Assembly: GCA_030528845.1 (NCBI GenBank) | Contig: JAUMYC010000072.1 | Location: 1-5,096, forward strand | Source: Eubacteriales bacterium | GTDB lineage: Bacteria; Bacillota_A; Clostridia; Christensenellales; Aristaeellaceae | DNA: 5,096 nucleotides | Direction: 5' to 3' | In this document: piece by piece, positions 1,700 through 5,096 of the stretch | How the letters are laid out: each line of letters starts with the position of its first letter | How positions within the stretch are numbered: position 1 is the stretch's first letter | Notes under the pieces: generated by a model | Databases searched by the model: none | Told to the model about the DNA's origin: nothing | Seen by the model: the letters and a program-made list of their open reading frames with translations, nothing else | Translations under genes and position numbers: made by a program

Positions 1700-1728
1700 T
1701 TGACGGGGAGGGGCGGTCGTGCTATAAT
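1700..1728 (+). promoter_or_regulatory. Extended -10 sigma-A promoter for the riboswitch-ATPase transcript
   Basis: TTGACG (1700-1705, five of six -35 consensus bases) and a perfect TATAAT (1723-1728) are 17 bases apart. A TG at 1720-1721 makes it an extended -10 promoter. Transcription should start near 1735, only a few bases before the riboswitch P1 stem, giving a leader of about 188 bases. Such a near-consensus promoter suggests high constant initiation, with control left to the riboswitch downstream. Confidence 0.9.
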
Positions 1729-1741
1729 TTTCAAGGAACCC

Positions 1742-1835
1742 GCATGGGGGAGTAGTTTGCGCCATACGCGCGTCCGGTCAACAGCACGCCGCCGAGGAAG
1801 GCGGTCTGGCCGGCCTTAAAGAACGAGACTCATGC
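1742..1835 (+). promoter_or_regulatory. yybP-ykoY family manganese riboswitch aptamer
   Basis: This RNA element senses Mn2+ in the nascent transcript. The closing stem P1 is GCATGGG (1742-1748) with CTCATGC (1829-1835), seven pairs including one G-U. Inside it are the family's hallmark segments: the GGGGAGTAG sequence ending at 1755, GGTCAACA (1776-1783), CCGG followed by CCTT (1810-1817) and GAGAC just before the 3' side of P1 (1825-1829). Internal hairpins are visible as GCGC/GCGC (1759-1762 with 1768-1771) and CCGCC/GGCGG (1789-1793 with 1800-1804, six-base loop). CCGG at 1774-1777 can pair with CCGG at 1810-1813. The class is known to bind Mn2+ and to precede P-type ATPases and MntP-type exporters, which matches the gene that follows. 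The class assignment is from recognised consensus and context, not from a covariance search. Confidence 0.9.
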
Positions 1836-1873
1836 ACGAGAAGCTCGTGCGCGTCCCGTTCTTGTTTTTGTTT
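1819..1873 (+). terminator. Intrinsic terminator forming the riboswitch expression platform
   Basis: A long hairpin is followed directly by a T-rich run. The lower stem pairs AAGAACG (1819-1825) with CGTTCTT (1857-1863); after an A/C mismatch, GAC (1827-1829) pairs with GTC (1853-1855). After a small internal loop the upper stem pairs GCACGAG (1834-1840) with CTCGTGC (1844-1850) across an AAG loop. The T-rich tract is at 1862-1873. The 5' half of the hairpin reuses the GAGAC segment and the 3' strand of P1 (1829-1835), so aptamer and terminator cannot both form. This predicts an ON switch in which Mn2+ stabilises P1 and allows read-through into the ATPase. Confidence 0.88.
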
Positions 1874-4594: not shown

Positions 4595-5096
4595 ATGAGA
4601 ACGACCCCGGTCAGGAGAATCGCAGCCCTGCTGATGAGCATTTTCATGCTCGTGGGCATGCTGCCGGCGTTCGCTGCGGCCGTTTGCCCGCTCTGCGGCG
4701 GAACGAACGTCACGCAGGAGGCCGTTGAATCGGTCAGGATCCATGGAAATGGCGACGGAACCCATACCACCACCAAGGTCACCACTGTACTGACTTATTG
4801 CAGCGATTGTCAGGTCACCTCCGACGCGCAGGAGACCCTCGGCGCGAGCGAGACGACCGATTGCGTCTATCCGGAAGAGGGCGGCGTCTGCGAAGCCTGC
4901 CTCACCACTCCCTGCGGTCATTCCGCTGCGATGCTGGACCAGATCTGGATCGGCATGGGCTACACCTGCGAGCCCTTGAACAAGGAGTTCCATGCGCTCT
5001 ATTCCAACGCCGTGCTGGCGGACGTGTGCATGGAGTGCGAAGAGATCGTCAGGTACTATGAAGACTCCGCTGAGAGCGAGTATATCGAGAACGAAC
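4595..5096 (+). CDS. Secreted cysteine-rich protein with CxxC pairs, function unknown, 3'-truncated by window edge
   Basis: I do not recognise this gene as a named family. The visible 167 codons begin with a clear Sec signal peptide: basic TPVRR, a hydrophobic stretch (about 9-24) and a likely cleavage after AFA at residue 27. The mature part contains eleven cysteines, including four CxxC pairs (31/34 within CPLCGG, 69/72, 99/102, 145/148) and single cysteines at 90, 107 (in CGH) and 125. The GGVCEACL segment resembles knuckle-like CxxC repeats often seen in secreted proteins of gut Clostridia. The pairs could bind zinc or form disulfides outside the cell. A Thr-rich stretch lies at 56-64 and an acidic one near 146-167. 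There is no stop before the edge, so total length and any anchor or C-terminal domain are unknown. The start is fixed by AGGAGG eight bases upstream. It may share the Mn2+-controlled transcript of the ATPase, but no functional link is evident from the sequence. Confidence 0.85.
   Translation, partial: MRTTPVRRIAALLMSIFMLVGMLPAFAAAVCPLCGGTNVTQEAVESVRIHGNGDGTHTTTKVTTVLTYCSDCQVTSDAQETLGASETTDCVYPEEGGVCEACLTTPCGHSAAMLDQIWIGMGYTCEPLNKEFHALYSNAVLADVCMECEEIVRYYEDSAESEYIENE

Follow-up and report, generated by a model that had tools for sequence, protein, structure and literature searches.

A P4-less aptamer of the yybP-ykoY (Mn2+) riboswitch class with an overlapping terminator upstream of a P-type cation ATPase gene

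The ATPase gene and its leader

The window, that is, the whole stretch of 5,096 nucleotides that was analysed (Eubacteriales bacterium, contig JAUMYC010000072.1), contains a gene for a P-type IIA cation ATPase of 872 amino acids, which is preceded by a structured leader (Table 1). A divergent gene on the minus strand (2-1480) encodes a diphosphate-dependent phosphofructokinase (TIGR02477, above cut-off) and has its own promoter-like site at 1555-1527. The section 4595-5095 covers the start of a protein that by eye appears to be secreted and contains cysteines; searches of this protein against Pfam and NCBIfam gave nothing at E ≤ 0.001.

The ATPase matched models of the PMR1, SERCA, and PMCA types, each below the model's own cut-off, and the best NCBIfam model was the PMR1-type TIGR01522 (675 bits, cut-off 798). 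The nearest solved chains are Ca2+-transporting ATPases, including one labelled Listeria lmo0841. In the M5 region, the pump reads TNIGE, whereas the solved Ca2+ ATPase 6zhf reads GNLGA. The pump therefore has a carboxylate that 6zhf lacks, which is perhaps relevant to ion stoichiometry or ion choice.

Table 1. Features of the ATPase locus and its leader (positions in the window)
Feature	Position	Strand	Basis
Sigma-70-like promoter, TTGACG-17-TATAAT, TG before the second hexamer	1700..1728	+	11/12 matches
yybP-ykoY-type aptamer without P4	1742..1835	+	R2 match 1741-1836, 61.3 bits, E 1.2e-15
P1.1 (switch helix), 5' strand GCAUGGG	1742..1748	+	pairs with 1829-1835; sequence and RNAfold
L1, 5' side GGAGUA	1749..1754	+	sequence; aligned by R2
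P1.2, 5' strand GUUU	1755..1758	+	pairs with GAAC 1821-1824; fold and covariation in relatives
P2 hairpin GCGC-CAUAC-GCGC	1759..1771	+	fold and covariation in relatives
P3.1, 5' strand	1772..1780	+	pairs with 1807-1815, single mismatch 1773/1814; fold, R2
L3 (ACAGCAC)	1781..1787	+	sequence, compared with L3 quoted in PMC6754395
P3.2 hairpin GCCGCC-GAGGAA-GGCGGU	1788..1805	+	fold
P3.1, 3' strand	1807..1815	+	fold, R2
Joint UUAAA, at the P4 position of four-way members	1816..1820	+	fold; joints of relatives
Intrinsic terminator hairpin	1819..1863	+	-22.3 kcal/mol alone; overlaps 3' strands of P1.2, L1, and P1.1
P1.2, 3' strand GAAC	1821..1824	+	fold
L1, 3' side, GAGA of GAGAC	1825..1828	+	sequence
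P1.1, 3' strand CUCAUGC	1829..1835	+	common to aptamer and terminator; RNAfold
U tract GUUUUUGUUU	1864..1873	+	sequence, directly 3' of the terminator hairpin
P-type IIA cation ATPase, 872 aa	1923..4541	+	NCBIfam/Pfam models, solved chains

The segments GGGGAGUAG (1747-1755), GUCAACA (1777-1783), CUGG (1806-1809), and GAGAC (1825-1829) can be read directly in the leader. Unconstrained folding of 1736-1840 with RNAfold returned P1.1 with seven pairs (one of them G-U), six unpaired L1 bases, P1.2, P2, and the P3.1-L3-P3.2 arm, and thus every helix listed in Table 1. The GGGGAGUAG segment faces GAGAC, with P1.1 and P1.2 on either side, as in L1 of the class. The hallmark segments and the seven-pair P1 stem that a first-pass annotation had read from the letters were thereby confirmed. 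The junction is three-way and carries the unpaired UUAAA where four-way members have P4. The plain folding energy of the leader is ordinary when compared with shuffled sequences (z -1.48 and -0.56).

In the crystal structures described in PMC6754395, Mn2+ sits between L1 and L3, and one of its contacts is the N7 of an invariable adenosine. By its sequence context (GUCAACA-GCAC), A1783 is the counterpart of this Mn2+-coordinating residue, which is A41 in L. lactis and A48 in X. oryzae; the match was made by hand to the segments UCA41 (L. lactis) and ACA48 (X. oryzae) quoted there. The adenosine that distinguishes L3 of the class is thus present in the window.

Membership in the yybP-ykoY class

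A covariance-model search against the yybP-ykoY family had been proposed as a check of the class, with a missing match named as grounds for refutation. With RF00080 of Rfam release 15 (177 positions, gathering cut-off 45 bits), this search was negative: the leader did not reach the cut-off and gave no match even when E-values up to 10 were allowed. The negative result has no refuting force, because two validated switches fared similarly: E. coli mntP scored 41.6 bits, below the cut-off, and E. coli alx was not found at E ≤ 1. In the printed consensus of RF00080, P1 is unpaired, and the match to E. coli mntP stops before GAGAC. Among 20 genomes with relatives of the pump, matches at E ≤ 10 occurred in 10 and exceeded the cut-off in none; among 14 control genomes, matches occurred in nine and exceeded the cut-off in two. 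The gathering cut-off is a rule of the database and not a property of the RNA, and it is not a fair test of this leader.

Since RF00080 fails on validated switches, an own covariance model (R2) was built from alignment A4, which comprises 11 relatives and excludes the window. R2 matched the window at 1741-1836 with the values given in Table 1, and this was the only match at E ≤ 10; according to a warning issued by the tool, E-values of models of this kind are approximate. In A4, 91.1% of the cells were paired, compared with a mean of 82.1% after shuffling and 26-44% when the partners were slid. Pairs changed on both sides numbered 12 (5.6 in shuffled alignments), whereas the count of further pair types (27) was unremarkable against a shuffled value of 25.0. 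Covariation was found in the relatives for P1.1, P1.2, P2, P3.1, and P3.2, with P3.2 being the weakest helix (76.4% of cells paired). Of the P4-less elements, 73 have a compact 3' side; the second pair of P1.2 was formed in 72 of these and the third in 63 (shuffled means 54.7 and 30.3 of 74, a set that includes the window). At locus L125, an element ahead of an ATPase gene scored 69.3 bits with R2 and has an L3 tail identical to that of the window.

Two earlier constructs were discarded. Model R1 included the window, and its MAFFT alignment, in which 63.4% of the cells were paired, was off by one in P3.1 for some of the sequences. Alignment A3, with Enterococcus rows, showed the same P3.1 shift and was set aside.

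A plain terminator or attenuator that resembles an aptamer by chance and binds no ligand would be compatible with the ordinary z-scores and with the missing Rfam match. We consider it extremely improbable in view of the match to an independent model, the covariation of the helices in relatives, and the recurrence of the element before Mn2+ transporter genes (see below). The first-pass assignment to the yybP-ykoY class was upheld by the R2 match and by this covariation, and 1742-1835 is confirmed as an aptamer of the yybP-ykoY (Mn2+) class, for which metal binding is predicted.

P1.2 seems to be longer in the window than in L. lactis. The crystallized L. lactis yoaB and X. oryzae members resemble the window in L1, in the key adenosine of L3, and in the competition between P1.1 and a terminator as described for them, but they have a four-way junction with P4 instead of a three-way junction with a UUAAA joint. 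E. coli mntP (L101) shares L1, L3 (GUCAACAUACU), P1.2, P2, and P3 with the window, but shows P4 when folded in a like manner.

A Mn2+/Ca2+ riboswitch at mgtA of Streptococcus pneumoniae was reportedly described by Martin in 2019. According to PMC9495176 and PMC11434433, this element has a three-way junction and activates transcription with a cation ATPase downstream, and in these respects, as far as its description goes, it is like the window. Because a three-way junction is reported for mgtA (PMC9495176), P4 was not treated as defining the class. A predicted Mn2+ riboswitch is also located upstream of the P-type ATPase CD2503 of Clostridioides difficile, to which the likeness is one of gene type (PMC11477304); the same source gives the L. 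lactis gene as an orthologue of a C. difficile P-type ATPase. Searches of a limited set of literature showed no dedicated description of the three-way yybP-ykoY form, and no first sighting is claimed.

Terminator overlap and predicted switching

The promoter-like sequence upstream of the aptamer would place the transcript start at approximately 1735; shuffles of the region contained on average 0.5 promoter-like sites. The first-pass annotation had located the 3' strand of P1 and the conserved GAGAC within the 5' half of a strong terminator ending in a T tract, and RNAfold reproduced this arrangement. Because the terminator includes the 3' strands of P1.2, L1, and P1.1, the aptamer and terminator folds are mutually exclusive. 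For 1736-1870, the free fold reached -55.5 kcal/mol compared with -42.8 kcal/mol when P1.1 and P1.2 were forced. The proposed default termination by a mutually exclusive hairpin holds computationally. In nascent RNA ending at 1840, the minimum fold is the aptamer with P1, P1.2, P2, and P3. At 1850-1855, P1.2, P2, and P3 are still part of the minimum, but P1.1 has given way to the upper terminator stem (1834-1850). Once the transcript ends at 1858-1863, the whole terminator is the minimum.

A simple terminator scan of the window reported no site. For the strand-swap pairing ahead of the T run, 3 of 100 shuffles were equal or better, which was counted against it. Across 86 elements, a first measure of terminator overlap did not separate real tails (69/86) from shuffled ones (60/86). 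With a second measure, a duplex score, 49 of the 86 elements, including the window, ranked at or below 5 of 100 shuffles.

As described in PMC6754395 and PMC11087558, Mn2+ binding stabilizes the distal P1.1 against the terminator, and the L. lactis yoaB member is described as a Mn2+-specific ON switch (PMC9190785). One review (PMC11477304) terms Mn2+ riboswitches OFF switches, a label that does not fit PMC6754395, PMC11087558, or the layout in the window. Since the putative ligand A1783, L1, and a P1.1 shared with the terminator are all present, the leader would be off by default and on in the presence of the metal. Very probably, the leader acts as an ON switch of transcription that belongs to the yybP-ykoY (Mn2+) class, lacks P4, and controls the ATPase by an exclusive terminator.

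In the course of events that we infer for metal binding, readthrough, the direction of control, and the ion of the pump, RNA polymerase would start at approximately 1735 and produce the aptamer first, with P1.1 as part of the best fold once 1835 has emerged. At high Mn2+, binding between L1 and L3 with A1783 as a ligand would dock the P1 and P3 legs. The docked aptamer would hold P1.1 and P1.2, thereby withholding 1819-1835 from the terminator, which would remain incomplete, and the ATPase gene would be transcribed. At low Mn2+, 1844-1863 would displace the weakly held P1.1 and P1.2, the terminator would form, and transcription would stop in the U tract. The ATPase produced may serve as an overflow pump for Mn2+ and possibly also for Ca2+.

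Control mainly at the level of translation or via Rho has a precedent in E. coli mntP, for which a translational riboswitch and Rho-dependent regulation are described (PMC11647493). In the window, such a mode is very unlikely: P1.1 shares sequence with a strong hairpin that runs into a U tract, and the probable ribosome-binding region (judged by eye at approximately 1904-1916) is about 40 bases farther downstream. In this respect, the window differs from E. coli mntP.

Distribution, associated genes, and the ion

A search with R2 in 80 ATPase loci collected by protein homology, a few of which hold little upstream sequence, gave matches at E ≤ 0.01 in 32. The element was located upstream of the ATPase gene on the same strand in 24 of the 80 loci, nine of which are part of R2 itself. 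Many relatives of the pump therefore seem not to be controlled by such a switch. In L010, the element faces away from the ATPase gene and precedes a divergent mntP. In seven Enterococcus loci (L033, L035, L037, L038, L040, L043, and L058), the switch lies 3' of the ATPase gene at approximately 5870-6064; in L033 and L043, as well as in L049, which was recovered by R1 alone, the gene that comes next resembles a Kup potassium transporter by eye. The ATPase leaders of L022 (1253-1343), L026 and L027 (2839-2930 in both), and L032 (2817-2914) have the same architecture with an altered L3, reading GUUAGCA or GGUAGCA instead of GUCAACA, and GAGAU instead of GAGAC. By their sequence, they are candidates for a changed ion preference.

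Whole genomes of two orders were searched with a pattern consisting of GGGAGUAG, GUCAACA, and AGAC with set gaps; because GGGAGUAG and GUCAACA are part of the pattern, their conservation in this census is not independent evidence. In the first order (that of genome G012 and of L012, Anaeromassilibacillus), the pattern occurred in 98 of 295 genomes and the reversed pattern in four; in the second (that of G314 and of L057, Eisenbergiella), the numbers were 64 of 295 and six. From these, 110 and 71 places were taken, with the row of G063 and one duplicate of L083 omitted from the first search. Five of them (L139, L153, L188, L234, and L261) were judged chance matches by eye and dropped, and 107 and 69 elements remained.

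Constrained folding of each element called P2 present and P4 absent in 85/107 cases of the first order and 44/69 of the second, that is, in 129 of 176 elements; the calls are mechanical, and some of the few calls with both P2 and P4 or with neither resemble misfolds. E. coli mntP, folded as a control, was called with both helices. Among 74 compact cases, to which the window belongs, 50 had UUAAA, UUAAU, or UGAAA as the joint in place of P4. Nearest genes were assigned by similarity to six reference proteins. Downstream of the P4-less elements of the first order, these were mntP (47), the ATPase (28), a Na+/Ca2+ exchanger (4), GDT1 (2), and OadB (1), with three left without assignment; in the second order, they were mntP (29), the ATPase (10), and the exchanger (3), with two without assignment. 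Both orders together gave 76 mntP and 38 ATPase genes among the 129. Pfam searches on eight pieces confirmed the exchanger, OadB, TetR, GDT1, and DUF47 assignments.

The reciprocal three-way form, in which P2 is missing and P4 is kept, was called mechanically in 27 elements (e.g., L104, L105, L108, L155-L157, L161-L163, L223, and L226-L228). Its neighbours, in small numbers, were the ATPase (20), GDT1 (3), and OadB (1), with three without assignment and mntP in no case. Switches of the Mn2+ type also preceded genes for OadB, a sodium-pump decarboxylase subunit (L104, L112, and L117; Pfam on L104 only), and for a TetR-like regulator (L127 and L147; Pfam on L127 only). In L209, a DUF47 protein (PiT-like, by Pfam) follows the switch, and the next gene resembles a phosphate transporter by eye.

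The frequent position of the P4-less element before mntP supports Mn2+ as the ion, as do its GDT1 neighbours; for GDT1 (UPF0016), PMC7380456 gives 328 of 333 strains with the gene as having it under a Mn2+ switch. In six loci (L141, L142, L160, L178, L224, and L248), mntP and, after it, the ATPase gene lie behind a single P4-less switch; the most plausible role of a pump that is coupled in this way to a Mn2+ exporter is in Mn2+ overflow. These neighbours and shared operons speak for Mn2+, the ion that the first-pass annotation had assigned to the pump; this assignment is putative, as the closest solved chains are Ca2+-transporting ATPases.

With the same fold and terminator logic, the physiological ligand might instead be Ca2+ or a Mn2+/Ca2+ mixture and not Mn2+ alone. 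The solved relatives of the pump point in this direction, and for mgtA of Streptococcus a review describes a response to both ions, with Ca2+ bound more tightly by the aptamer and Mn2+ as the stronger activator (PMC9495176); some yybP variants are considered probable sensors of other divalent ions (PMC7266159). Furthermore, most mntP leaders diverge from many ATPase leaders in the part of L3 that follows the key adenosine; in the window, this tail reads GCAC and is ATPase-like. In P4-less elements of the first order, an A two bases after the key adenosine was present in 38/47 mntP leaders compared with 4/28 ATPase leaders (p 2.5e-8, uncorrected for kinship and with the window left out). A hand-made list of seven first-order genomes with both genes gave 7/7 and 1/7, respectively, and G313 and G007, from outside this order, agreed with the contrast. 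With an earlier gene assignment, the contrast persisted when the set was thinned at 80% or 75% identity, but not at 70%, where only four clusters were left. The difference is not strict, however: in the second order, 28/29 mntP leaders and also 7/10 ATPase leaders of the P4-less form had the A (p 0.045), whereas all topologies together gave 29/30 and 8/22 (p 2.2e-6). As the gene-linked rule is strong in the first order and only partly repeated in the second, we treat it as no more than a lead. Moreover, the two crystal structures share the metal contacts but differ in how the bases 3' of the Mn2+-binding adenosine fold (PMC6754395), so the L3 difference may be neutral. Taking into account that the P4-less form also precedes mntP and GDT1 and that mntP and the ATPase share a switch in six loci, we consider a ligand other than Mn2+ alone unlikely.

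The switch in the window is of a known kind and adds a well-supported P4-less example to the Mn2+ riboswitch class. Because this P4-less element escapes RF00080 and validated switches fall below its cut-off, annotation based on that model probably undercounts Mn2+ switches in the groups sampled. A wider reading, which we consider unlikely on present evidence, is that the P4-less yybP-ykoY form, the commonest among the pattern matches in both orders, constitutes a large, structurally separate subtype whose L3 is tuned to the gene. Leaders of mntP would then mostly retain the A two bases past the Mn2+-binding adenosine, whereas many ATPase leaders, including that of the window, lack it and would respond to Ca2+ or Mn2+/Ca2+ at another set point. 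If true, this would provide sequence-defined candidates for the suspected yybP variants of altered specificity. The census yields pairs of mntP-leader and ATPase-leader aptamers from one genome, such as L136 and L125 of G274, which are available for direct tests of ion specificity.
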